Origin: a virus
DNA: 64,000 nucleotides
Direction: 5' to 3' (one strand)
IMG/VR virus record: IMGVR_UViG_3300033153_007754
Span: 62,001-126,000 of that record
Part shown: in pieces, positions 1,120 through 51,997 of the stretch
Position numbering within the stretch: position 1 is the first letter of the stretch
Layout of the letters: each line of letters opens with the position of its first letter
Translations under genes and position numbers: made by a program
Notes under the pieces: generated by a model
Database searches by the model: none
Seen by the model: the letters and a program-made list of their open reading frames with translations, nothing else
What the model was told of the DNA's origin: nothing

Positions 1120-2922
1120 TCAAATTTCAATTAAAGTGATGTTAGAATCGATATTATTTACATTCAATATGGGTTTTGGTTCAAAACCTTGGAAAGTTGG
1201 ATTACTATCAGTTACATCTATAGATATATTAAAACTATCTCTTGTAACTACACTGATATCATTAAAGTTTATGTGATATGTTGTTTTACCATATGTACTA
1301 CCAACAACTTCAGTAAAAGTTATTAAATTGGTGTATTGTGGGATTAACCCATCTATTATAACAGTATTTCTAATATAAAAAGATGAACCAAAAGTCGTTA
1401 CTTCTAAATTGCTATTATTAATGGTTGTTGTTATACCATTGTATGTAATATTTACATCATAATTATCTAATAAATTTAATGCATCACTACCAATATAGTT
1501 AACAAAACTTTTTGTGTCATCATAATCACTATCTATTGTTAAACCAAAACCAACAGAATCAATTTTGAAATCAACCATTCCATTTATGTTTTCTTGCACA
1601 ATATACATTTGTAAAATACTTTTATTAATATACGAAATATTATTATTATTTATGTTGCTTAGTAAAATATTATTGATGTTATTTTTTAATGGTGTAGGGT
1701 AATTACCAACAACATTTTTATTCAGGTAAGAGCTATATTTAATTAATAAATTATTATATTGTATATCATTAAAAACTATGTTAATACCAAATCTTGCTTT
1801 TTTATTAATTATATCAATTTCATTTACATAATTATCATAATTCATTCGTTCTACTACACCCGAATCAGATACTTTATACAAAGATACATAAACCATCCCT
1901 GCATTAGCGTTTGCAATGGGTAAATCATTAGAATCTAATACATTATATTGCCAATTTGGAAATAAATATTCAATAAAAGTATTTAAATCCGATTTTGTTA
2001 CAATCCTATCTTGTGTTTGGTAGAATCGGCCCATTAATTCTTTAATTACCTCGAATCCTTCAGCACCCGCACCACCCGCACTAACATGTATTAATTCGGT
2101 TGAATATATGTCAGCATCAGTGTTCTCAATTATCAAATTACTTTCAGATATATTATTACCCTCATTACCTAAAGTTTCATAAAAAGATACCGAAACGCTA
2201 CCATATACATTTTTACCCAATTCATCATTAGAAAGTTTGATTAATAATTTATCATCTTCAGTGTAATCTAAATAATAAAACATTCCATCAACTAAAATAT
2301 CACTAGTGTCTTCAATAGTTTTATTGTTTGCTAGAAACTCTATTTCAGAATCAGTTGGATTGTGTGTTACAACTAAACTATCATTATCAATATTCCATTT
2401 ATGTGTATCTATAATTATTTCATTATCGTTTGTAGATATAAAATAAGTTTTTTCTACTAATTTACCTTGTTTGAATTCATACTTAGAATATGTTTCATCA
2501 AACACAGTATCATTTTCTAAAATATGGTAAAATTCAGTGTCATCAGCCTTTACAATAATTACATCACCCTTATCTAATGTTTTACTTGTTACACTAGCAT
2601 CTAAATTAGTATCAGAAAGTCTTAATTCTAGTGTAATTCTGCTGGAAATCATCCGTCTTGGTTCATACCCATATTTTTTGATTAAACTCATGATACTACT
2701 TTCTATTTTTGCGTTTGGTGTGACTTCGTTTATCATCAAATCAGTCTTTATAGATAAAGTAGTAAAAACATATGTAAGTGCTGAAATCAGTGTTGATATG
2801 TTAGAACCATCAAAATTTACATCTTTTAGTTGTGAATTATTTTCAGCAGCTTTTTCTAAAAAATACTTTTTAATTAAAATTGAAACATTTTCAGGTGTAT
2901 CATGTAAGTAATTTATATCCAT
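1120..2922 (-). CDS. gp6: Baseplate wedge protein, gp6 / baseplate J-like
   Basis: A 600-residue protein starting at the ATG preceded by AGGTTGAAT; an in-frame TTG lies six bases upstream. The central part reads AGGAGAEGFEVIKELMGRFY and then QDRIVTKSDLNTFIE, the hallmark of gp6/baseplate J proteins (an 'A..P..fr..' helix followed by 'RvVT..Dye.f'). After this come a Y-rich and then beta-rich C-terminal half, as in T4 gp6 (660 aa). In T4, gp6 dimers form the wedge ring around the hub. A late-promoter-like AATAAATAG lies 31 nt upstream. The downstream gene looks like another baseplate part, which supports the call. Confidence 0.8.
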   Translation of the reverse strand: MDINYLHDTPENVSILIKKYFLEKAAENNSQLKDVNFDGSNISTLISALTYVFTTLSIKTDLMINEVTPNAKIESSIMSLIKKYGYEPRRMISSRITLELRLSDTNLDASVTSKTLDKGDVIIVKADDTEFYHILENDTVFDETYSKYEFKQGKLVEKTYFISTNDNEIIIDTHKWNIDNDSLVVTHNPTDSEIEFLANNKTIEDTSDILVDGMFYYLDYTEDDKLLIKLSNDELGKNVYGSVSVSFYETLGNEGNNISESNLIIENTDADIYSTELIHVSAGGAGAEGFEVIKELMGRFYQTQDRIVTKSDLNTFIEYLFPNWQYNVLDSNDLPIANANAGMVYVSLYKVSDSGVVERMNYDNYVNEIDIINKKARFGINIVFNDIQYNNLLIKYSSYLNKNVVGNYPTPLKNNINNILLSNINNNNISYINKSILQMYIVQENINGMVDFKIDSVGFGLTIDSDYDDTKSFVNYIGSDALNLLDNYDVNITYNGITTTINNSNLEVTTFGSSFYIRNTVIIDGLIPQYTNLITFTEVVGSTYGKTTYHINFNDISVVTRDSFNISIDVTDSNPTFQGFEPKPILNVNNIDSNITLIEI

Positions 2923-2952
2923 ATTCAACCTTTTTTAAAATTTAATCTAAAA

Positions 2953-2961
2953 CTATTTATT
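2953..2961 (-). promoter_or_regulatory. Late-promoter-like element for the gp6-like gene
   Basis: On the minus strand this reads AATAAATAG, 31 nt before the gp6-like start. It is close to the T4 late -10 element TATAAATA, with no TTGACA box at -35, as expected for late promoters. Similar elements precede other virion genes in this window. Confidence 0.5.
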
Positions 2962-3016
2962 AAATATAGAAAAAATCTTATAATAAGGCACATATTTGAT
3001 AGTAACTTAATTGGTT

Positions 3017-3044
3017 AAAAGAAGCCCTGCCTTTTGGTAGGGCT
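3017..3044 (-). terminator. Intrinsic terminator after the primase gene
   Basis: On the minus strand a stem AGCCCT/AGGGCT, extended by CC/GG with a short AAAA loop, is followed by TCTTTT. It lies just beyond the primase stop codon and ahead of the gp6-like promoter, separating a replication operon from a late operon. Confidence 0.75.
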
Positions 3045-3060
3045 AAGACCCAAGTTGTAA

Positions 3061-4041
3061 TTACAATAAAAAACTTTCCGTTGGTGTATTTATTGAGTTT
3101 CTCAACACAATTTCAGAATTGAAATCAATATTGTTTTGGATTAATTCATTTACATCTTTAATTAAAATAATATTAAAATTACTTTTAGCAAATAACTTCC
3201 AACTAAATACATGATATCCATTTAGAATTAATTCATTTGATGTTTCGTAACCAGCTTCATCATTATCCAAAATAAAATATAAATTCTTTTTTGGAATCTC
3301 ATTATTTATACAATATTCAAGAAATAAATCTGTTTTACTTATGCTACCTAATGCAATATTATTATCAAAAAAAATTGAATCAATCTCACCTTCCAATATA
3401 AAAATTGGTTGATTAATATCTATACCATCCATATTAAAAAATGTTAATTCTGGTGGTAATTCCTTTTTGATTGTTAGATATTTAAGTTTAGGTTTTTGTA
3501 ATAATGAACGGCCTTTTAAAGCATATATATCCCCCTTGTAGTCTAAGTATTTAATTAAAATCCTTTTATCAGGGAAATAAAACTTTTTATTTATTTTATT
3601 AATATTATAATATAGCTGCATAAAGTTTTCTGAATATGTAAAAAAGTGGTGTTTATTTTTGGGTATCATTCTTTTTTTTAAGAATATGTTTAATAAATTA
3701 CTATTATCATTAGTGGCATTATTATAATAAATCATTTCTTCTTTAGTAAATACATTAAAATTATGTTCAACACGTTTTTTTTTAATTATAACTTCTTTGG
3801 GTTTAACATATGTTAATAATTCTAGGTTTATATTGGTGTCTGTTTCTGTATGGTAATCTTCCCCGATTCGTTTATAATATTGTTCTGCGTGTATGCTTGT
3901 TTTACACCTAAAACACTTATACCAAATCCCCTTTGGGTGTTTGTCTAAGCCTAAAACATATGCTCTATAATCTTTGGGGTTATCCCCTCTTGAACCATTA
4001 CCGCAAAAGGTACAAAAAACTGATGTTCTATCATTTACCAT
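3061..4041 (-). CDS. gp61: DNA primase, T4 gp61-like (zinc ribbon + TOPRIM)
   Basis: A 326-residue protein with an N-terminal zinc ribbon (C10xxC13 and C43xxC46). A TOPRIM core follows, with the glutamate motif FILEGEIDS near residues 214-222 and the DNDEAG motif at 259-264. This is the layout and size of T4 gp61 (342 aa), which makes RNA primers with helicase gp41; a gp41-like gene is present at 52.3-53.8 kb. The start overlaps the end of the upstream gene by 11 nt, implying translational coupling. An intrinsic terminator follows the stop. Confidence 0.85.
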   Translation of the reverse strand: MVNDRTSVFCTFCGNGSRGDNPKDYRAYVLGLDKHPKGIWYKCFRCKTSIHAEQYYKRIGEDYHTETDTNINLELLTYVKPKEVIIKKKRVEHNFNVFTKEEMIYYNNATNDNSNLLNIFLKKRMIPKNKHHFFTYSENFMQLYYNINKINKKFYFPDKRILIKYLDYKGDIYALKGRSLLQKPKLKYLTIKKELPPELTFFNMDGIDINQPIFILEGEIDSIFFDNNIALGSISKTDLFLEYCINNEIPKKNLYFILDNDEAGYETSNELILNGYHVFSWKLFAKSNFNIILIKDVNELIQNNIDFNSEIVLRNSINTPTESFLL

Positions 4042-4933
4042 TTTCTAATCTCTTTAATTTTATTTTAAAATCCATTTCAATTTTATCTAATTCAGTATTC
4101 AATTTTTGGTTGTAACCATCAATATCAATATTTTCATATTTATCAGCATTCATATAATTCATAATTTCCCCTGAAACTTCTATCTCCACATCTGTATTAC
4201 CAGGTGTTTTATAAAAATTAGAACGTTCAATTAATTCTTTATATTTAAAAAATAGTTTTGGTGTTATCTTTCTATTGTCAACTGGGTTTATTATTATATT
4301 ATTATAATCAATTATTCCATCTTCAGATTTAAAATATAAGGAATCGTATTTATTATAAACACTATATTGTTCTTTAAAATCATCTTCACCAAATTGCATC
4401 ATTAATTGTTTTTTTACACTTGGGTGATATTTATTAAAGTTATAAAATCCCTTTACTTTATACCTTTTTAACCTAGTTTTATTTACTTCATATTTTCTAA
4501 ATATTCTATACTTTTCACCAAGCAATTTTCCCGAAACATCTAGTATTAATTTATTCAAATCTCCACTTGGGATTCTTTGTATCTTATTGTTGTGTAAATA
4601 TTCTGGAAATAGTTTATCAAAAAAAAGACTGATGTTTTTATTAGAAGGTTTATTGTATATAACAAAACCAATACCATCATCAACCTCAATTTCAGGGTTT
4701 TCCATCAATGCGGTGAAATCAAAAACCCCTTTACTTTTTTTAAATTCTTCGATATATTTATAGATATTAAATATACCATTTGGAAAAGTTATATCTAATA
4801 ACTGCCAAAAAAATTTATAATTTCTTTGGTTGATTTTTGTGATATTATTTGCATATAAAAGTGATTTGATAATCACTAAATTTTCGTTTGCTGTCTTTCT
4901 GTTTTTTGTTGGTAAATTAAATTTGTTTTCCAT
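4031..4933 (-). CDS. Hypothetical protein coupled to primase
   Basis: A 300-residue soluble protein that I do not recognise. It starts at an ATG after GGATAAA and its last codons overlap the start of the primase gene, so the two are likely co-translated. It is rich in Lys, Asn and aromatic residues, with no membrane segment, Cys cluster or P-loop. The C-terminal ~50 residues are predicted helical and charged. The coupling suggests a replication role, but no motif supports a specific one. Confidence 0.7.
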   Translation of the reverse strand: MENKFNLPTKNRKTANENLVIIKSLLYANNITKINQRNYKFFWQLLDITFPNGIFNIYKYIEEFKKSKGVFDFTALMENPEIEVDDGIGFVIYNKPSNKNISLFFDKLFPEYLHNNKIQRIPSGDLNKLILDVSGKLLGEKYRIFRKYEVNKTRLKRYKVKGFYNFNKYHPSVKKQLMMQFGEDDFKEQYSVYNKYDSLYFKSEDGIIDYNNIIINPVDNRKITPKLFFKYKELIERSNFYKTPGNTDVEIEVSGEIMNYMNADKYENIDIDGYNQKLNTELDKIEMDFKIKLKRLENGK

Positions 4934-4987
4934 TTTATCCGGCCCCTATAAATACCCTAAGAATTATAATATAGGAAGCAAGTAATG

Positions 4988-5167
4988 TCAAGTATTTACA
5001 TGTAAAATTGCCATATTTTCATTAAAATAACTGATTGCGAAATATGCGTCGACTGATTTATCAATTTTATCTTCATCATATTCTTCTAATAGACTTAAAT
5101 CTTCAATTAAATTAACCAATCTTTTACGATATTCTGTTCTTAATTCAACTATATTGTCTTCATTCAT
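4988..5167 (-). CDS. Small acidic hypothetical protein (59 aa)
   Basis: An ORF read directly from the sequence, beginning MNEDNIVELRTEYRKRLVNL. It is acidic and helical, and it ends 55 bases before the primase-coupled gene starts. GGGG lies about 12 nt upstream of the ATG, the same type of site used by other genes here. There is no recognisable domain. Its Glu/Leu-rich composition and spacing fit a real small gene in this operon. Confidence 0.55.
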   Translation of the reverse strand: MNEDNIVELRTEYRKRLVNLIEDLSLLEEYDEDKIDKSVDAYFAISYFNENMAILHVNT

Positions 5168-5206
5168 TTAAAAAAAACCCCATTTAAAAACAAATTATAG
5201 TATAAT

Positions 5207-5722
5207 TTATTTATTTAATAAAGGCTTGTATCCGTGACGTTTAAGGCTTCTTTCATCTTCTAGTTTATCAATTAAATTAATTTCATCACCTTTTAAAATA
5301 TTAAACATAATGTGGTATGTTTTTTGGCCTGATGATTCAGTATCAAAAGTACCAACAAAAGCGTATGTATTATTTTTTTTATTATACCAAATTGATTCCA
5401 AATCCTTAAATTTAACCCACCCAAAACCATTCCATTCGGGCTCAACGGAATCTATCATATCTTCAACTTCTTCGTCTAAATCTGAATATAATAATATAAG
5501 CTTAACTTCATCATATGTTAATGGGTTCAATATATAGGCTTCCTTTAATTTCTCTACATTATTTCTTATGTCTTCTAAAACATTAACTGATAAATTATCT
5601 TTTTTTAATAATTCTTTATATTCATTCATTTTAATAGTAATAATGTCTATGTTTTCTTTTTCTATTAGTAGCTTTTCAGCTACTATTTTTTGTAATCCAT
5701 CAATTTCTTTAATTAAATCCAT
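5207..5722 (-). CDS. Hypothetical protein (171 aa)
   Basis: The N-terminal ~70 residues form a charged helical or coiled-coil stretch. The C-terminal part is a mixed fold containing WNGFGWVKFKDLESIWY and a Gly/Ser-containing strand pair. It starts at an ATG 31 nt downstream of a TATAAATA element shared in a palindrome with the opposite-strand gene, suggesting late expression. No family is recognised; a minor virion or assembly protein is possible. Confidence 0.65.
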   Translation of the reverse strand: MDLIKEIDGLQKIVAEKLLIEKENIDIITIKMNEYKELLKKDNLSVNVLEDIRNNVEKLKEAYILNPLTYDEVKLILLYSDLDEEVEDMIDSVEPEWNGFGWVKFKDLESIWYNKKNNTYAFVGTFDTESSGQKTYHIMFNILKGDEINLIDKLEDERSLKRHGYKPLLNK

Positions 5723-5744
5723 TATATAACCTCTTTATCAATAA

Positions 5745-5760
5745 TATAAATATATTTATA
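5745..5760. promoter_or_regulatory. Palindromic divergent late promoter
   Basis: The 16-bp sequence TATAAATATATTTATA is a perfect palindrome holding one TATAAATA late element on each strand, back to back. The plus copy lies 28 nt before the start at 5780 and the minus copy 31 nt before the start at 5722. This matches the spacing of other late elements in the window. Confidence 0.65.
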
Positions 5761-5779
5761 AATTTTAATAAGGTAAAAT

Positions 5780-6121
5780 ATGAGTGATTTTAAAAGTGAA
5801 ATAACATTAAAAAAAATTGTAGAAGGTGTTACAGATATTAAAGAATTATTTCCTGAAACTGTTAGTGGATATACTTATTATAATAAAATAGAATTAAGTA
5901 TTGCAGCAGCAACGAATAAGGATATTGTATTTGAAAATTCTACTAAATTGTTTATTTTTGCTGAAAATGCTGTAACAATTAAACATGATAATGCGGATAG
6001 TATTGTGTTGGCGAAAGGAAAAAAGTTAATATTGGATAACACGGACGGTTTAACTACTATTAATATAGAAAATGAATCAACTGATACACCTGTATTAGTT
6101 AAATTATTTTTAGTTAATTAA
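5780..6121 (+). CDS. Small beta-rich protein, probable virion component
   Basis: A 113-residue protein on the strand opposite to its neighbours, expressed from a late-type TATAAATA with an AAGG site before the ATG. The sequence alternates hydrophobic and polar residues through AVTIKHDNADSIVLAKGKKL and ends in VLVKLFLVN, suggesting a beta-sandwich or beta-helix fold. It has no Cys and no signal peptide. A capsid decoration or tail accessory protein is a reasonable inference from the late promoter and composition, but no family is recognised. Confidence 0.6.
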   Translation: MSDFKSEITLKKIVEGVTDIKELFPETVSGYTYYNKIELSIAAATNKDIVFENSTKLFIFAENAVTIKHDNADSIVLAKGKKLILDNTDGLTTINIENESTDTPVLVKLFLVN

Positions 6122-10399: not shown

Positions 10400-11380
10400 A
10401 TGATTGAGAATACTATGTGGTGTCCAAATTGTAATGAGGGCGAGGAATTAAAGAACATTAGTGATGGAAATATAAAGTGTAGAACATGTGGGTACATAGG
10501 AAAGCCGAATTGTCTTACCAATCCGTCATCGACAGAATTGGTAACCAGTGAGGAAGATATTAACGAATTGGTAGATTGTGTTACGGATAAATCACATCAA
10601 ACAACTGGTATTGGCTTTTTTAGTGCAGGGTCTGTTGATATAATTAATTTAATAAATGAAAATGAAGGGTTATTGAAATATGATTCATATGGTTCATTTA
10701 TTTTTATTATTTGGAATGGGGAAAACACCCAAAAAGTAATAGATTTATTAAAAAAAGGCGATGTGTTTCATGCCTTTATTTTAAATCACAATCATTGGTC
10801 ATATTCACAGGAAGATACACTTAAAAGAATTTCAGGTCTAATTCAATATTGGAATAACCATACTTCATCCATTACCTATCATAAGGTAAAAAATCAACAA
10901 ATTGAATTAAATAAAAAACATGTAGAATGTATGGAAGGTATGGGAGTATATTCTACTAAAGATATTAATGATTTTATGCATCCAATATATTTACTAAACA
11001 GAATATATAAAAACAAAGAAATAACTAAAAGGGATATGGGTGAGTTAAAAAAACTTATCCCTGATAATGCTGAAGGGATTAAATTAATTGAAAATTTTAA
11101 ATCTGATGTGTGTAGAGATTTTTTTCACCATGGTCATTTAGGTTATGATGAATATTTAGATACACATCTACCCATTTACAATATGTTAATAAAAAATCTA
11201 CCAGAAAACATTAAAAAAATCATATCTGGAGGGACTGATTCTTATAGTTACTCATATGAAGAAGAATGGGGTAAAAGAATGAACCAAAATGTCCATAGAA
11301 TTGACACTGAATTTATGCTTAATCAATTAAAAGGTTTAAGGCAATATGCTAGACTATTAATAGATATAGAAAAAAACTAA
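10400..11380 (+). CDS. Zinc-ribbon protein of unknown function (326 aa)
   Basis: The first gene behind promoter copy A. The N-terminus has a zinc ribbon (CPNC near residues 8-11, CRTC near 27-30). The rest is alpha/beta with many His and aromatic residues. Residues around 66-77 (HQTTGIGFFSAG) and the C-terminal ~30 (TEFMLNQLKGLRQYARLL) reappear almost intact in the 50-residue gene at 12885-13037. The early-type promoter suggests a host-takeover or regulatory role; no family is recognised. Confidence 0.75.
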   Translation: MIENTMWCPNCNEGEELKNISDGNIKCRTCGYIGKPNCLTNPSSTELVTSEEDINELVDCVTDKSHQTTGIGFFSAGSVDIINLINENEGLLKYDSYGSFIFIIWNGENTQKVIDLLKKGDVFHAFILNHNHWSYSQEDTLKRISGLIQYWNNHTSSITYHKVKNQQIELNKKHVECMEGMGVYSTKDINDFMHPIYLLNRIYKNKEITKRDMGELKKLIPDNAEGIKLIENFKSDVCRDFFHHGHLGYDEYLDTHLPIYNMLIKNLPENIKKIISGGTDSYSYSYEEEWGKRMNQNVHRIDTEFMLNQLKGLRQYARLLIDIEKN

Positions 11381-12884: not shown

Positions 12885-13037
12885 ATGTGTGTTCAAAAAG
12901 AAAATGTAATGAACCAAACAACAGGGTTTGGTTTTTTTAGTGCTGGTGATATTGAACACATTAACACTAAATTCATGCTTAATCAATTAAGAGGTGTAAT
13001 TCAATGCCTTAGATTATTAACAGATATAGGAAAATAG
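12885..13037 (+). CDS. Mini-paralogue of the 326-aa zinc-ribbon protein
   Basis: A 50-residue ORF with TTAGGAGGATAGT before its ATG, 9 nt after the preceding gene. NQTTGFGFFSAGDIEHIN matches QTTGIGFFSAG of the 326-residue protein at 10400-11380. TKFMLNQLRGVIQCLRLLTDIGK matches that protein's C-terminus. It therefore looks like an internal-deletion derivative that keeps one internal segment and the C-terminal helix. A good ribosome site and intact frame argue that it is expressed. Confidence 0.65.
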   Translation: MCVQKENVMNQTTGFGFFSAGDIEHINTKFMLNQLRGVIQCLRLLTDIGK

Positions 13038-13058: not shown

Positions 13059-14135
13059 CTAAACAATACCCATCTCAATCAAATTAAAAATAAAATTTTC
13101 ATAATTACTGACAGTTCCAGCAAAAGTATCAAAGTTTAACGAATCTATATACCCATTTAATATAGCTGGTTGTAGAATATCTAATTTCACCACAATATCT
13201 TTTAATAAAATTGTATCAACATAACCATATTTAATATATTTTTTGTAATCATTTAAGTATAACTTTTCAAGGTTACCTTCATCGTGGTAATTAACTTTCC
13301 CATATTCATCACCTAAAATTGTTTTTGCAACATAATCTAAAGAATATTTTGGAAGTGGTGGGTAATACACTTTTAATAAATCCATACTATCTATCTGTGA
13401 AACCCCCAAAATATCAACAGCATCATATTCACCAAATTTATCCCTGCCTGTATAAGTTCTTACCTTACCAAAAGGTGAAAAGTTCTTACCACCGAGACCA
13501 ATTTTTTCAGCACGATAATAGAGATATGGGTCATCAAATTTAGAACCATTATGTGCTATTATGATATCATTATTTTCTTTTAAATATTCAAAGAAATGTG
13601 ATATTAAATCTTTTTCGTTTTCAAAATGTTTATAATAATCATATGTCTGAGTATAATCTTCTTTGTAACCAAAAGCAAAACTATGTTTTTTATTAAAATC
13701 ATAACCTGTTATTAGTGTTACAGCGTGTTTGGCTTCTTTAACATTCACTCTTTTACCATCGAACCTGGTTTCTATGTCATAATAAAGTGGCCGTGGAATG
13801 TTTAAATCCATTAAATCTACATCCAAACTAAAGTTTTTACTGATATATTGACACTCTATAGTATCAACACCATACAAATCTATTTCACCATCTTTTTTCA
13901 ATGTTCGTAATAAATTTTTATATTCTTTAATGTCGTTTGATTTATATTCAGCAACATTAACACCTTCTATTGTAACACAAGTGTTTTCACTTTCATTTGC
14001 AGATTCTATATATAACCTTAAAGGCATTTGTTTTATTATTTTTGAAACATATTCTAATGTCATAAAATCATAATATTTTAAATATAATTTATTTCTATAT
14101 TCCTTGATATAAGTATATTGTTGTTTTATTTCCAT
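13059..14135 (-). CDS. gp43A: DNA polymerase B, 3'-5' exonuclease part (split gp43, N-terminal)
   Basis: A 358-residue protein corresponding to the N-terminal and exonuclease domains of family B polymerase. Exo I LYYDIET lies near residues 118-124, Exo II HNGSKFDDPYL near 195-205, and Exo III YGYVDTILL with Asp near 307. It ends cleanly a few tens of residues after Exo III, before where palm motif A would begin. The polymerase half is a separate gene at 18371-20275. The two should assemble to give a proofreading polymerase. The start chosen follows GGGTAATAAC; an in-frame ATG four codons upstream is possible. Confidence 0.88.
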   Translation of the reverse strand: MEIKQQYTYIKEYRNKLYLKYYDFMTLEYVSKIIKQMPLRLYIESANESENTCVTIEGVNVAEYKSNDIKEYKNLLRTLKKDGEIDLYGVDTIECQYISKNFSLDVDLMDLNIPRPLYYDIETRFDGKRVNVKEAKHAVTLITGYDFNKKHSFAFGYKEDYTQTYDYYKHFENEKDLISHFFEYLKENNDIIIAHNGSKFDDPYLYYRAEKIGLGGKNFSPFGKVRTYTGRDKFGEYDAVDILGVSQIDSMDLLKVYYPPLPKYSLDYVAKTILGDEYGKVNYHDEGNLEKLYLNDYKKYIKYGYVDTILLKDIVVKLDILQPAILNGYIDSLNFDTFAGTVSNYENFIFNLIEMGIV

Positions 14136-14200
14136 GTTATTACCCATTCTTGAAAAGAATAATTATAGTTTTTTTTTGATATTTAAGGAATCTTTTTTTG

Positions 14201-14326
14201 TTAAGATTTCATTTCATTAAGTTGATTCTTAATGTCTTTAACGTCATTTTCTGATAGTTTAACTCCACCCAGACGTTCATCCACATCATTTAATATTTCG
14301 CTCAATTCATCTAAATGTTCACTCAT
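14201..14326 (-). CDS. Small coiled-coil-like protein (41 aa)
   Basis: An ORF read by eye: it starts MSEHLDELSEILNDVDERLG with a strong GGAGGTAAAA site and ends with Lys/Asn-rich helix. Heptad-like Leu/Ile spacing suggests a short coiled coil. It precedes the exonuclease gene on the same strand. Confidence 0.6.
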   Translation of the reverse strand: MSEHLDELSEILNDVDERLGGVKLSENDVKDIKNQLNEMKS

Positions 14327-14349
14327 TTTTACCTCCATATATTAACTTT

Positions 14350-14658
14350 TTATTTAGTGATAATATTCACCAATTTTTTAGGAATAAGAACTATCTTTTC
14401 GATATTTTTATCACCAATATATTTTATTACAGCCGAATTATTCATAGCAAGTCTTTCAATTGCACCCTTGTCTTCATCTTTATATATAACTTCTTTCCCT
14501 ATTAATTTCCCATCCACTTGAAAAATGACAACTGTATATTCACCCTCTTCTTTCCATCCACATTTAGTTGATTCAATATATGAAAAAGGGTTGAGAAAAA
14601 AACAATCAATACATTCTGCTATATCATTAATAAGTATTTCACGTATTTCATCAATCAT
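14350..14658 (-). CDS. Small protein resembling the leucyl-tRNA synthetase C-terminal domain
   Basis: A 102-residue protein, translationally coupled (ATGA) to the upstream gene. From about residue 42 the order is VVIFQVDGKLIGK, a helix ERLAMNNSAVIKYI, and the ending KIVLIPKKLVNII. This follows the C-terminal domain of bacterial LeuRS ('v.qvnGKvr.k ... er......v.kyl ... rKviyvPgKLlNlv') in order and spacing. There is no catalytic HIGH/KMSKS portion. In LeuRS this domain contacts tRNA-Leu. A phage modulator of host LeuRS or a tRNA binder is an inference. The comparison is from memory and needs a profile search. Confidence 0.45.
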   Translation of the reverse strand: MIDEIREILINDIAECIDCFFLNPFSYIESTKCGWKEEGEYTVVIFQVDGKLIGKEVIYKDEDKGAIERLAMNNSAVIKYIGDKNIEKIVLIPKKLVNIITK

Positions 14659-15014
14659 TTTTTACCACCATGTTGATTTAATAAAAGTTCAATTTCTTTA
14701 TCTTCTTCATCAGTTGTATCAAGACCTTTATCTTCTGTCAATAAATTGTTTACTTCGATTAATTTATTTAATAACACCATGTTACTTGTATTGTAGCCAT
14801 CTAAAGTAATCCTTAAAGAATCATGTATCTCTTTAATTAACTTAATTAACCCTAAATCAACATCTTCATTATTATTATTATCTGCACGTTGCATCAATTT
14901 CTTTAAAAATTGTTTTAAATCCTTTATTGATTCTTTATATTCTTTACGGATAAAAACAACTTCATTGTTAAACGCTTTTACATTCCCCTCTATTTTAATA
15001 ACATCCTTATCCAT
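14655..15014 (-). CDS. Helical hypothetical protein (119 aa)
   Basis: The start at MDKDVIKIEGNVKAFNN has GGTGATTACT upstream; a longer frame with a hydrophobic N-terminus overlaps the previous gene and is rejected. The product is almost all helix with a coiled-coil pattern and an acidic C-terminus. It lies between probable virion genes and the LeuRS-like gene. Its function is unknown. Confidence 0.6.
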   Translation of the reverse strand: MDKDVIKIEGNVKAFNNEVVFIRKEYKESIKDLKQFLKKLMQRADNNNNEDVDLGLIKLIKEIHDSLRITLDGYNTSNMVLLNKLIEVNNLLTEDKGLDTTDEEDKEIELLLNQHGGKK

Positions 15015-15642
15015 AGTAATCACCAATATTAAATTTAATAACAAATTCAAATATATGTTTAAAATCACCTTCTTTATCAAATTGATAATTAACACCAACT
15101 TCATCATCATATTCATGTAAAAGATTCACCCCATTTGGTGGTAAATTTGTTAAATAATTTTCTGTGTTATGATATAAATAAAGTAACATAACACTTTCAT
15201 AATAATTCTCTAAACTAGATAAAATCTCTTCACTAATATTTTTCCAATTAATTATCTTTCTTATGTATAAATAATAAGAATCAGTGTTATAATTTAATAA
15301 CATATTGTTTAATGCAGTACTATCATTTTCGTCAACAAATTTTAAATATCTTGTTACAAAAGGTGTAACATTCTTATCAACATGTATTTTATCATAATCA
15401 TTAGAATCACCTGTATCATAGCAAAGCGTTAATAAGCCATCCGCATCTGAAAGTATATTATTTAACAATAAAACATTTGGGTCAGAGCTTCTAATATCTT
15501 CATATGTTGTTGTTGCCGTTGCTGTATTTATTTTATCTTTAGATAAAAGTAAATATAAAAATTTACCATTTTTAATAAATCTCACAATCATTTTTATTAT
15601 ACCAGCATTAACAGCATTAAAAATCGTATTTTGTTTACTCAT
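15007..15642 (-). CDS. Hypothetical protein, probable virion/tail component
   Basis: A 211-residue protein with GAGAGG before the ATG, coming 2 nt after the adhesin-like gene in transcription order. It has a helical centre rich in Tyr and Asn and no known motif. Its place next to the beta-rich 547-residue protein and the tube-like 170-residue protein suggests a structural role, but this rests on context alone. Confidence 0.6.
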   Translation of the reverse strand: MSKQNTIFNAVNAGIIKMIVRFIKNGKFLYLLLSKDKINTATATTTYEDIRSSDPNVLLLNNILSDADGLLTLCYDTGDSNDYDKIHVDKNVTPFVTRYLKFVDENDSTALNNMLLNYNTDSYYLYIRKIINWKNISEEILSSLENYYESVMLLYLYHNTENYLTNLPPNGVNLLHEYDDEVGVNYQFDKEGDFKHIFEFVIKFNIGDYYG

Positions 15643-18079: not shown

Positions 18080-18371
18080 GAAAATCGTTAATACCATTGC
18101 TTTTTTTATTTTTCTTGAATTCATTAAAGAAATAACCACCATCTTTATATAGTTTCTGAATTCTATCTTTAAAAAAGCCTGGCATATTTTTATTGAAATC
18201 ATCTAATTCATTATCATCTTCTACGTTATACATACTCAACGCATTTACTAATAATTTAGCTATATTATCACCTTCTACATAATCTTCATAAACTTTATTC
18301 CAAATTATGTTATAAAATTTATTCTTTAGTGCTGTGTCATTTTTTAAATCTTTAAAGCTGTGAAAATCCAT
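18075..18371 (-). CDS. Hypothetical protein coupled to polymerase subunit (98 aa)
   Basis: Its ATG overlaps the polymerase stop codon (TAATG) with GGGAGTAC upstream, so it is translationally coupled to the polymerase gene. It is a helical, Lys/Asp/Asn-rich protein with no known motif. Coupling makes a polymerase partner possible but unproven. Confidence 0.6.
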   Translation of the reverse strand: MDFHSFKDLKNDTALKNKFYNIIWNKVYEDYVEGDNIAKLLVNALSMYNVEDDNELDDFNKNMPGFFKDRIQKLYKDGGYFFNEFKKNKKSNGINDFL

Positions 18372-20275
18372 TAAAAGTACTCCCTAAAATTGTTTGTTTT
18401 TTTCAATTGCCATCCGGCCGCCCCTAATAAAATATTTAAACTAGATAGATAAAAAGCATCAAATTGTAAATCATAATCTATATCAGTTACAAAATATTTC
18501 ATCATTTCTAAATTTCTAAAAGTGATTGTATCACCTTTACCCGTAAATTGTTTATTTGCCTTTAAATACACGAAATAAGCATAATCACCATTTTCAATAA
18601 AAGATGTTGGGATATTGTGTTTTCTAATTAAATAATTACAATAAGCTGCGCCCCTAAGTATTGGAGTTGCTTTTGGTTGTATTACATAATCAGCTTTTTT
18701 TATTATCTTATTATCTTTAAATAATTTTCTATAAGTATTTATCTTATAAGCATTTTTTAATGCATTATGTGTACTATATTCTTTTATATATTTGTGATAT
18801 TTATTTACCTTTGTGTTTTGTGCAATTTGTGTTATATCCATAGTTTTAAATTCTTTTCTTATTTTTTCAACAAATCCCCTTAATTCATCAATTTTATTTC
18901 TAAATATTATATCAACACTATGTTCTAACCACTTTGTTATAACAACCGGGTACGAAACATTTTTTGTAGATAACCCCGTTGTTTTTAATTTGTATGGTGT
19001 AAAAAACTTACCTTCGTCATACAAAGTTTTCATTACGTATTTTTTCTTTTCAACGTGCAAAGCCGCTTCATTAATCTTTTCAATTTTCATTTTCATTTTA
19101 TATTCAAATTTATTAATATAGTCACTACTATTTTTAAATGTTGTATCAATTATTGGTTGTGCAACCTTTTCATTAAATACTAAAATATCATTAATTAGTT
19201 CCTTGTTGGTTGCATAGACTTTGTTTTTATATAGTGCCTGTATAAGTGGGTCAATATTTACGTAAACCGAATCTGTGTCTATATATATAGATGGTTCATA
19301 ATCTTTGTAATCTGGAAACATAATTTTAAAATTATCTGTTACGGATTTAGCAATAGATTTAATATAATATTGGCTTAAAGATGTTATTGCATTTGCAACA
19401 TCCAAATCATAATATTTGTAATAAGCATTCGCAAAAGCACCATAACCCTTGTTTAAATTCCGTTTAAATGCTAAATCTTTCGTTCTGTAAACCCTTTCTT
19501 GTTCACCCCAATATTTAATGTTCTTTTCGTCATTGTTTTCTTTAGCTTTATTTAATCCATCAATAGCATTACTTCTATGTGCTTTTGCAACTAAACGTTT
19601 ATCATATAAATAATTCATAGCCACACACATAACACTTTTCTTGTTTAGTTTAAAAAACATAAGATTTGGTGTTACTGATAAATTATACTTTTCTAAAAAA
19701 CCACCAAAATCTATTGTTCTTGTTACCATCAAATCTATTGTTGCGGCTAAAATATCTCTATAAAGTGGGTCACTCGATTTTCTATATAAAATGTTAAAAT
19801 ATGATTTTGGAAATTCAAAACTTAATAAATCATCTTTTCTATATTCATCTGTTTTAATTAATAAGTATTCCCCACCTCTTTTAACTGCAATTCTTTTACC
19901 TTCTTCAATTTTTTCTTTTTTTAATTTACCAGTTCCATCAAAAAAATGATGATAAAAAGTAGAACCCTTTCTGCTATACATAGACTTTGTCATTTTCTTT
20001 ATAGGAACGTGTCTACCTTTGCCAGTTTCAAACACATTGAATATCTCAACCTGTTTAAATAAATGTTCCCTAAAGTCAATTGGTAAATCAGCCAACATTA
20101 TTTTATTTTCCTTTCCAATATTAGCTGTCATAATAGCGGATGGATATTCCGAGTTAACATCAAAAGACATTGTAAAACCATACAATCCACGTTTAGTTAA
20201 ATAATTATAACCACCCAAATAAGGGTACTTTTCTGAATGTGCAACAAAACGCCCACTAACCAATTTTCTATTCAT
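18371..20275 (-). CDS. gp43B: DNA polymerase B, palm/fingers/thumb part (split gp43, C-terminal)
   Basis: A 634-residue protein holding the polymerase half of a family B enzyme. Motif A SFDVNSEYPS lies at about 37-46 (Glu replaces the usual Leu of SLYPS), motif B K..xN..YG at about 271-279, and motif C YIDTDS at about 331-336. It starts just before motif A, so the exonuclease domain is absent and encoded at 13059-14135. The C-terminal thumb region follows. The weak site GGTG precedes the ATG. It lies downstream of a DnaN-like clamp gene, which may serve this polymerase. Confidence 0.92.
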   Translation of the reverse strand: MNRKLVSGRFVAHSEKYPYLGGYNYLTKRGLYGFTMSFDVNSEYPSAIMTANIGKENKIMLADLPIDFREHLFKQVEIFNVFETGKGRHVPIKKMTKSMYSRKGSTFYHHFFDGTGKLKKEKIEEGKRIAVKRGGEYLLIKTDEYRKDDLLSFEFPKSYFNILYRKSSDPLYRDILAATIDLMVTRTIDFGGFLEKYNLSVTPNLMFFKLNKKSVMCVAMNYLYDKRLVAKAHRSNAIDGLNKAKENNDEKNIKYWGEQERVYRTKDLAFKRNLNKGYGAFANAYYKYYDLDVANAITSLSQYYIKSIAKSVTDNFKIMFPDYKDYEPSIYIDTDSVYVNIDPLIQALYKNKVYATNKELINDILVFNEKVAQPIIDTTFKNSSDYINKFEYKMKMKIEKINEAALHVEKKKYVMKTLYDEGKFFTPYKLKTTGLSTKNVSYPVVITKWLEHSVDIIFRNKIDELRGFVEKIRKEFKTMDITQIAQNTKVNKYHKYIKEYSTHNALKNAYKINTYRKLFKDNKIIKKADYVIQPKATPILRGAAYCNYLIRKHNIPTSFIENGDYAYFVYLKANKQFTGKGDTITFRNLEMMKYFVTDIDYDLQFDAFYLSSLNILLGAAGWQLKKTNNFREYF

Positions 20276-20507
20276 ATTTTGCACCACAAATTATTTGGGT
20301 TTTTCTCTTATTAAACAATAATAAATCATCACATTTGAGACACTTTTTATCAGCCACAAGGCAATTTTTTTTATCACAAACATTTTGTGTTATCTTATTA
20401 TTAATTATTGTAAATAAACTAATTAAATTAACATTTGCATCTTCTATATATTTATTATCATCACTTTCTTTATATGGTTTCCCAAACATTATTTTATATT
20501 CCATCAT
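20268..20507 (-). CDS. Cys-rich small protein, probable zinc-binding (79 aa)
   Basis: Two CxxC-like groups (VCDKKNC, KKCLKC) and a further Cys near the C-terminus suggest a zinc site. The gene overlaps the polymerase start and lies between DnaN-like clamp and polymerase, with GGGG before the ATG pair. It may be a replication accessory; no family is recognised. Confidence 0.6.
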   Translation of the reverse strand: MMEYKIMFGKPYKESDDNKYIEDANVNLISLFTIINNKITQNVCDKKNCLVADKKCLKCDDLLLFNKRKTQIICGAKYE

Positions 20508-43649: not shown

Positions 43650-44387
43650 TTATATCCCAACAATATTTGGTTTAATTGGTTCTTTTTCATTAACACTTAT
43701 ATTTGCACGTTCTAATTTAATTTGTTTTTCCACATCATTTTCTTCAACTTCAGATTCATTAATTGTGAAATACTCATTAAATACATCTAATCCAATATTG
43801 TTAATCATAGTTTTACAAGATTTACATTTTCCACAATGACTTAAGACATCATCATGAATTAAGGGGTTTTCACACGTAGATATCATTTTTTTTAATTTAT
43901 CGTCAATCATATTCCATATATGTGTTTTTTTTATTTTAATCAAAGGGAATTTCAAAACAGGTCTTCTTACATATGTATGTATAAATGGTTTATAAGCATT
44001 ATATAATCTCTTGATTTCGGGTAAATAACTAATTGCATCATCACCCATAACATAACCTAGATGTATTTCATCAATGCTACTAGAAAAAATACTACACCCC
44101 ATAATCCATAACACCGGTTGTATTAAAGTTGCACTATACAGGTCACCTACTTTAATATCTACTTTCATTTGTGCACGATTAAATTCAACCCGATTGCCAT
44201 ACCTTTCTTTGAAATAATTATAAATTATATCACGAGCCTTGTTTTCCATCTTGGTTTGTGTTATGTTATTCCCTATTTCAAATTTAATTAAATAAACATG
44301 GTTGTCTGTGCTTGCTTCTAAAGCTTTTTGAATTAAATAAGTAGAATCCAAACCACCTGAAAACGGTATTAAAATATCTTTTCTCAT
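43650..44387 (-). CDS. queC: QueC-like 7-cyano-7-deazaguanine synthase
   Basis: A 245-residue PP-loop ATPase with SGGLDSTY at 9-16 and a C-terminal zinc site STCENPLI..SHCGKCKSCKTM at about 170-192, as in QueC (CG.C..C). QueC makes preQ0 from CDG using ATP and ammonia. In phages, preQ0-derived bases are put into DNA to block restriction. No QueD/QueE/FolE or DpdA-like gene is seen in this window, so the substrate may come from the host or from genes elsewhere. GGAAGG precedes the ATG. The last ~35 residues are an unusual charged extension. Confidence 0.8.
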   Translation of the reverse strand: MRKDILIPFSGGLDSTYLIQKALEASTDNHVYLIKFEIGNNITQTKMENKARDIIYNYFKERYGNRVEFNRAQMKVDIKVGDLYSATLIQPVLWIMGCSIFSSSIDEIHLGYVMGDDAISYLPEIKRLYNAYKPFIHTYVRRPVLKFPLIKIKKTHIWNMIDDKLKKMISTCENPLIHDDVLSHCGKCKSCKTMINNIGLDVFNEYFTINESEVEENDVEKQIKLERANISVNEKEPIKPNIVGI

Positions 44388-48553: not shown

Positions 48554-49666
48554 TTATTTTTTTAGAATGGTTTTGATTTCTAGTGCTATCTTTGCGTTAC
48601 TATGTTTTTGTATATCTTTTATATCAATTTCGTTCCCATCAGCATCAATAACCAAATCACAATTAATTTCATATTTACCATCCAACTCACTAATAAAATC
48701 TTTTGTTGCATCAGAATGTATAATTGTGATAAATTTAGATATTTCCTGATGTGATTTTACACCACCTTCTCTTGATATAATAGAGTTAATTCTGTGTGTT
48801 GTGATATAAGCAGAATAAATAGGGATTAAAGGATTATTGAATTTCACTTTTTTATTACTATTCTTTTTATTAACACCACTTTTATCATTAAATTTAATAG
48901 ATTTCTTTTTAATATAATAAGTGTTTGCACCATTGAATTTTAAATCATATGGCTTAATTACAATACCTTCTATCATATCACTACCATAAAGGCTTTTTGC
49001 GTTCTCAACATCAAATTCAAGGGCTTCTTTTAATGTTTTAACACCATAATCTTTAATATAATATTCAGATAATCCCAATTCATTAAATAATTCTTTAGTT
49101 TTTTTAGGACTTATTAATTCACCATCCAAAAATAAATCATAAAATACTATTTGTTTATGTTTTGAATATCTAATTTCTTTCTGTATACCATCACCAAACA
49201 TTTCACATTCTAATACAATATGTTTGTGTTTATTTTTATAAAAATCTGCAATAGTGTTTATAACATTTTGATAGTCTTTCACTACATTTTTATGTTCAAA
49301 AAAGTTAATGTTTTCACTTAAATACATAGTTCTTTTACCATAATCAACCACCATTTCTTGACCATCAAAAAATATTGATATTGCAAAATGTGTTCCATGA
49401 ATTTTAGATGTTAAAATCCATTCTTGATTGTTATTAGTATTTATTAAAAGTTTATCTAATTTAGTGTTATAATGATTACCAATTGAGCTGTATTTTCTAA
49501 ATGGAATTAATGTCAATTCACCATTTATTTTTTTATGGATAATACCACTCAATAGAATTCCACAATTAGAACATTTTTTATTGGTAATTTTTCTTTTAAA
49601 TTCATTTAAATCACCAATATTTACAATTTTACTTTCACCACAACTACAATTAATTACATAATTCAT
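48554..49666 (-). CDS. RNA ligase 2 (Rnl2-like) with N-terminal zinc ribbon
   Basis: A 370-residue nucleotidyltransferase. Motif I SKIHGTHFAI (Lys88 adenylated), motif III FYDLFLDGE, motif IV MIEGIVIKP, motif V YIKKKSIKF: these fit T4 Rnl2-type ligases, which seal nicks in RNA duplexes. Before the core lies a ~40-residue zinc ribbon (CSC, then KKCSNCG at C32/C35), which T4 Rnl2 does not have. It is expressed from the dyad promoter copy G with CAGGAGG before the ATG, so it is likely an early RNA-repair enzyme. Confidence 0.88.
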   Translation of the reverse strand: MNYVINCSCGESKIVNIGDLNEFKRKITNKKCSNCGILLSGIIHKKINGELTLIPFRKYSSIGNHYNTKLDKLLINTNNNQEWILTSKIHGTHFAISIFFDGQEMVVDYGKRTMYLSENINFFEHKNVVKDYQNVINTIADFYKNKHKHIVLECEMFGDGIQKEIRYSKHKQIVFYDLFLDGELISPKKTKELFNELGLSEYYIKDYGVKTLKEALEFDVENAKSLYGSDMIEGIVIKPYDLKFNGANTYYIKKKSIKFNDKSGVNKKNSNKKVKFNNPLIPIYSAYITTHRINSIISREGGVKSHQEISKFITIIHSDATKDFISELDGKYEINCDLVIDADGNEIDIKDIQKHSNAKIALEIKTILKK

Positions 49667-51601: not shown

Positions 51602-51997
51602 TTAATTTAAGAAATATTTAATGAAATCTGTTATTTTAATTAAAACTAAAATGCTAGCATAATTATCACCACCCTTTACAGTTCTGGGTTTTTTCTTTTT
51701 TATATATTCTTTTAATACTTCAACTGGAATCATTAATGAAAATTTGTGTTCACCCTTTTTTGTAAAGTTTTGCACCCAAATTTCTGATTCTGTTGTTATT
51801 ATACCCGAATCTTTACCCCAAGACGAAACCTCTATTACCATATTACCAGATTTAACCCATATATCCTTTTCTGTTTTAACTTCACATTTTGTTACACCAG
51901 AAAATATATTATCTACATATTCTTCCCATTGTCGACCAAAAGCCAAATCGATATCAAATTTCTTTAAAACTTTAATGTCTTTACTATCGTTTAGCAT
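51602..51997 (-). CDS. PD-(D/E)XK-type endonuclease-like protein
   Basis: A 131-residue protein with FDIDLAFGRQWEEYVDNIFS, then CEVKTEKDIWVKSGNMVIEV and SSWGKDSGIITTESEIWVQ. This is the order helix - 'EVKtD...Tgn..iE' - 'gk.SGi..T.ad.w' seen in small phage PD-(D/E)XK nucleases; the acid is Asp15 or Asp17 with Glu-X-Lys in the strand. It may process recombination or replication intermediates. AGGAGG and AGGG lie before the ATG. Confidence 0.75.
   Translation of the reverse strand: MLNDSKDIKVLKKFDIDLAFGRQWEEYVDNIFSGVTKCEVKTEKDIWVKSGNMVIEVSSWGKDSGIITTESEIWVQNFTKKGEHKFSLMIPVEVLKEYIKKKKPRTVKGGDNYASILVLIKITDFIKYFLN

Follow-up and report, generated by a model that had tools for sequence, protein, structure and literature searches.

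Profile comparisons show that a T4-like phage carries a natural, free-standing gene for the C-terminal domain of bacterial leucyl-tRNA synthetase (LeuRS) alone. We read the 102 amino acid (aa) product as a captured and retuned LeuRS domain that would act as a non-catalytic binder of host tRNA, with tRNA-Leu preferred, and would hold or shield the bound tRNA; judged from sequence comparison and from analogy with an isolated human domain, this reading has about an even chance of being right. The window referred to throughout is the whole 64,000 nucleotide stretch analysed, and coordinates are those of the window unless another stretch of the record is named.

A small operon gene in a divergent T4-like phage

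The record represents a 153.5-kb virus whose genes for the portal, terminase, major head protein, tail sheath, tail tube, clamp, clamp loader and helicase are of T4 type. By these matches it is a deeply divergent T4-like phage, the portal being at most about 29% identical to those of the phages listed and the terminase about 35%. The domain gene occupies positions 14350..14658 on the minus strand, running from an ATG at 14658 to a TAA ending at 14350, exactly where the initial annotation had placed a 102-residue protein. Inspection of the sequence showed a Shine-Dalgarno-like GGTGGT 5′ of the ATG (14664..14669, minus strand). The start codon overlaps, as ATGA, the TGA of the directly upstream gene in the ORF list (14655..15116, minus strand), which probably starts internally, near position 15014, and which gave a weak match to phrog_6309 and was assigned no function in a PHROGs search. 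A small gene of 45 aa or 41 aa (14201..14338, minus strand; ORF list and sequence), with a GGAGGT Shine-Dalgarno sequence ahead of its second ATG, lies 11 bp beyond the stop codon. The GC content at third codon positions is 17%, compared with a genome GC content of 27%, and is alike in the neighbouring genes, i.e. the codon composition is phage-like. Because of this shared composition, the ATGA overlap and the closeness of the next gene, we conclude that the 102-aa ORF is a real coding gene within an operon.

The gene is flanked by the parts of a T4-type DNA polymerase that is divided between two genes, one for the polymerase half (18371..20287, minus strand; profile match) and one for the exonuclease half (13059..14147, minus strand; Pfam and PHROGs profile matches). 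This gp43-like polymerase is split at about position 362/378 of the phrog_262 profile, and its parts lie in swapped order, with the polymerase part upstream, the exonuclease part downstream and other genes filling the roughly 4 kb that separate them. Two contigs from other assemblies are 100% identical to this region over 8,052 and 6,787 bases, and since these assemblies carry identical DNA the domain gene cannot be a chimera peculiar to the assembly of this record.

Homology to the C-terminal domain of LeuRS

The bacterial LeuRS profile TIGR00396 (leuS_bact, NCBIfam) matched the 102-aa protein at E=7.4e-8, with residues 42-101 aligned without gaps to positions 783-842 of the 843 in the profile, at a score of 31 bits against a family cut-off of 548.4. 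A phmmer search of PDB sequences matched residues 44-100, again without gaps, to the leucine--tRNA ligase chain 6q89_A (E=3.3e-6), and the same single-sequence search found entries for the E. coli enzyme, 4aq7 among them, at E=0.015. We also built an HMM of the C-terminal domain from LeuRS alone, with the phage protein left out. Run on the 1,878 ORFs from a six-frame translation of the record, it scored the 102-aa protein at 55.8 bits (E=3.9e-16), compared with 9.8 bits for the second-best ORF; 20,000 shuffled versions of the protein reached 13.9 bits at most. Because the score far exceeds that of the next ORF and those of all 20,000 shuffles, the LeuRS likeness is, by these profile comparisons, homology and not chance. 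The likeness had been noted in the initial annotation, with a profile search against the LeuRS C-terminal domain as the suggested check, and it was borne out both by TIGR00396 and by the independent profile. The protein had no match in Pfam or PADLOC, and PHROGs returned just weak, unrelated-looking matches (best E=0.016).

The domain proper, delimited by the profile searches, comprises codons 42-101 (14356..14535, minus strand), the stretch shared without gaps with the last 60 positions of TIGR00396 and with the LeuRS structures 4aq7, 2bte and 6q89 in the PDB. As in bacterial LeuRS, both domain ends and most of the conserved residues are present. Unlike bacterial LeuRS, the phage protein is free-standing, without the catalytic, editing and anticodon-binding body, and has a unique N-terminus as well as two substitutions at conserved domain positions, N807D and R811I. 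A full LeuRS enzyme, having a catalytic body with HIGH and KMSKS as well as editing and anticodon domains, was ruled out, as the protein has 102 aa and covers profile positions 783-842 only. LeuRS of Aquifex is split into alpha and beta parts; a split enzyme of this type was likewise ruled out, since a profile search found no second LeuRS part in the 153.5-kb record. The gene is the lone LeuRS-like place in the whole record, in agreement with the earlier description of the protein as having no catalytic body.

Codons 1-41 (14536..14658, minus strand) encode an acidic N-terminal extension, recognised from the profile searches and from composition, for which no relatives were found in Pfam, the PDB or the LeuRS tail profile. 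Residues 1-40 include 3 K/R and 10 D/E, and the protein overall is slightly acidic (14 K/R and 18 D/E). An origin of the extension from what was once the anticodon domain of LeuRS was considered and rejected, as the 130-column LeuRS tail profile stops short of it and nothing was found in the PDB.

Conserved residues and the predicted tRNA-contact surface

Conservation was assessed over a set of 63 LeuRS, in which 16 columns are conserved in more than 70% of sequences (LeuRS residues are given in E. coli numbering). The phage protein keeps 11 of these columns (Q47, V48, G50, K51, A71, V77, K88, P93, K95, V97 and N98) and is changed at five, namely N807 to D49, R811 to I53, G841 to D83 and two I/V swaps. 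Three of the four universally basic positions are kept (K809, K846 and K853), as is N856, which is near-invariant in LeuRS. The fourth basic position, R811, is Arg in 98% and Arg or Lys in 100% of LeuRS and is Ile53 in the phage protein; N807, Asn in 94% of LeuRS, is Asp49, and R845 is Glu87. In E. coli LeuRS, strands 802-816 and 845-859 make all 68 contacts between the domain and the tRNA (24 and 44, respectively; PMC12336229 Table 2), and counterparts of both strands are present in the phage protein. The kept conserved residues and the presence of both contact strands therefore make it likely that the phage domain is folded and RNA-facing. Its contact surface as aligned differs from that of LeuRS, and N807D, R811I and R845E might make RNA binding weaker or turn it to another target. 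The LeuRS mimic proposed in the initial annotation thus holds in part: the profile matches support a stand-alone homologue of the LeuRS C-terminal domain in a phage, but the protein is unlikely to copy the contact surface of LeuRS exactly, because the near-invariant N807 and R811, which lie in a tRNA-contacting strand, are altered. The change in charging or the escape from tRNA-directed defence that the annotation also put forward would be hypothetical effects of such a protein.

The same substitutions bear on a second kind of target. T4 RegA and gp43 are translational repressors, and regA is found in the DNA polymerase gene region of T4. A domain repurposed to bind phage or host mRNA, for example to repress translation of the adjoining replication genes, would accord with the position of the phage gene between the DNA polymerase halves, and the loss of the LeuRS-type R811 and N807 suits an altered RNA target. 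However, no conserved target was seen, position by itself is weak evidence, and the retention of most of the conserved domain residues points to the original ligand. We therefore regard mRNA binding as distinctly unlikely.

The phage domain is more diverged than every LeuRS in the profile set (57 bits compared with 76-109), and the closest LeuRS is 43% identical over 61 positions. This divergence, the fact that exactly the 3′ end of leuS is covered, and the lack of relatives that would show purifying selection are all consistent with a remnant in decay, in which the 3′ end of a host leuS gene was brought in by transduction and has no function. On the other side, the frame is intact, it has a start of its own, a ribosome site and the ATGA overlap, its codons are used as in the phage, and the conserved residues of the family have mostly been kept at this level of divergence, so that we judge a remnant to be very unlikely.

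Predicted tRNA binding and possible roles

The LeuRS C-terminal domain contacts the tRNA elbow or variable arm (PMC4810234; PMC5059758). When isolated, the C-terminus of human mitochondrial LeuRS (mt-LeuRS) binds mt-tRNA-Leu with a KD of about 0.6 uM and mt-tRNA-Ile with a KD of 2.5 uM (PMC3927953), and it stabilises tRNAs and rescues tRNA defects without catalysis, a rescue that the authors attribute to a chaperone-like effect (PMC3927953; PMC4370040). The human construct of 67 residues shares with the phage protein the domain standing alone, and it is non-catalytic and binds cognate and non-cognate tRNA (PMC3927953); it is man-made, whereas the phage version is natural, has an added N-terminus and is predicted to bind tRNA. 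We infer tRNA binding because of the family to which the domain belongs, the basic residues that it has kept and the behaviour of the isolated human domain. Trbp111 and Arc1p (OB fold) are likewise non-catalytic tRNA binders apart from a synthetase, a likeness in idea; they belong to a different domain family (PMC11286949), and no sequence match was seen.

In the mechanism that we propose for a host-tRNA binder, a T4-like phage would have captured the 3′ end of leuS from a bacterium and retained the domain as a small protein in its own right, joined to a new N-terminus of 41 residues. The non-catalytic product would bind host tRNA, preferably tRNA-Leu, on its elbow or variable-arm side and might hold or shield the bound tRNA during infection, to the benefit of a tRNA-poor phage that has a strong demand for UUA decoding or that faces tRNA-cutting defences. 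No tRNA genes were detected in the 64-kb window or in record stretches L005-L008, RNA genes in the last 7.5 kb of the record (L010) being judged by Rfam search only. Leu accounts for 8.3% of phage codons, and TTA for 62.5% of Leu codons. Since no tRNA gene was detected and TTA predominates to this extent, a role in the availability or protection of tRNA-Leu would fit. A natural viral tRNA chaperone or shield, in which the phage supplies no tRNAs of its own but the elbow-gripping domain of the synthetase alone, and so keeps host tRNA-Leu, or tRNAs generally, intact or available in the face of tRNA-cutting defences, is a tentative and rather unlikely version of this role.

T4 Vs, a modifier of valyl-tRNA synthetase, is also a small protein of a T4-like phage linked to an aminoacyl-tRNA synthetase. 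The parallel with T4 and ValRS drawn in the initial annotation can be retained as an analogy but does not extend to sequence, as Vs (115 aa) showed no similarity to the 102-aa protein (BLASTP E=2.8, 11.9 bits) and scored 0.1 bits with the LeuRS C-terminal-domain profile. In the manner of Vs, the phage protein might compete with or dock beside the flexibly tethered C-terminal domain of host LeuRS and so alter or block leucylation. It is homologous to a mobile domain of LeuRS itself, its N-terminal extension could supply a protein contact, and in E. coli this domain of LeuRS shifts together with the variable arm of the tRNA when the complex switches between the states for editing and for aminoacylation (PMC5059758). 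Against such a modulator stand the lack of relationship to Vs, the altered tRNA-contact residues, which would make the protein a poorer direct competitor at that tRNA site, and the harm that a leucylation block would do to a UUA-dependent phage with no detected tRNA; we consider it unlikely.

The C-terminal domains of yeast mitochondrial and human mt-LeuRS also aid intron splicing (PMC4370040), and the phage protein could by that precedent be a splicing factor for a group I intron. No group I intron or other Rfam family was found in the 64 kb window or in the remaining 89.6 kb of the record, the last 7.5 kb included, and because no introns were detected we hold a splicing role to be extremely improbable.

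Distribution of the free-standing form

Stand-alone fragments of aminoacyl-tRNA synthetases are known in the form of editing and catalytic domains. No report of a natural free-standing LeuRS C-terminal domain was found in the literature searched. Scans of 2.9 million viral contigs, one made directly and two with the most conserved motifs of the profile, demand exact motif matches and so may let diverged copies escape; the motif scans recovered this phage and otherwise only full or contig-edge LeuRS genes, and the direct scan added no further stand-alone copy; the matches inspected in a scan of genome contigs were full LeuRS too. Among 50,697 phage records searched by tblastn no other free-standing copy was found, all of the records opened containing bacterial LeuRS in contaminated or misclassified entries. 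A tblastn search of 72,556 plasmid records also found none, the matches having either an annotated leuS or no gene listed at the place. The domain profile found no free-standing copy in 198 whole prokaryote genomes, 197 of which gave exactly one match; the places listed, which do not include the weakest matches, fall in ORFs of 808-1142 aa. No further stand-alone copy was found in 118 genomes searched with the 102-aa protein itself, and a search for syntenic relatives through either DNA polymerase half returned the same phage only. Within these collections and at these sensitivities, the free-standing form is seen only in this phage. If the protein binds tRNA, it would represent a new viral way to handle host tRNA. 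It would also be the natural counterpart of a domain that is studied as a lead for the therapy of mitochondrial tRNA disease.

Other features of the phage genome

The window also encodes a T4 Rnl2-like RNA ligase (48554-49666, minus strand), near which a weak PIN-domain match was noted (51602-51997, minus strand), and a QueC-like protein of the 7-deazaguanine pathway (43650-44387, minus strand). Repair of tRNA by a T4-type kinase was considered and rejected, as the sole AAA_33 match is the clamp loader and the RNA ligase belongs to the Rnl2 type.

Outside the window, stretch L008 carries a type IV-like CRISPR effector operon (2090-5966, plus strand; record positions 128,090-131,966) of five overlapping genes, with matches to Cas6b, Csf1 (type IV Cas8), Csf2 (type IV Cas7), a BrxP/DndC-like protein and Csf3 (type IV Cas5). 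The Csf2 match includes a Cas11-like N-terminal part, and we read the BrxP/DndC-like protein as CysH-type. No CRISPR repeat array was found in the 9 kb scanned. A 539-aa protein with a Cas12f/TnpB-type TNB domain is encoded in L007 (6263-7882, minus strand), and at least five MORN_2-repeat proteins are encoded in L005 (10416-13328) and L006 (1945-2895 and 4303-5637), all on the plus strand.

In the window, a 50-aa ORF (12885-13037, plus strand) repeats internal and C-terminal stretches of a 326-aa protein (10400-11380, plus strand) and resembles an internally deleted copy of it, corresponding to DNA repeats D1 and D4. The plus-strand genes at 10400 and 11486 are each preceded by a repeated, promoter-like 70-mer of the form TTGAC..TATA (repeat D2).
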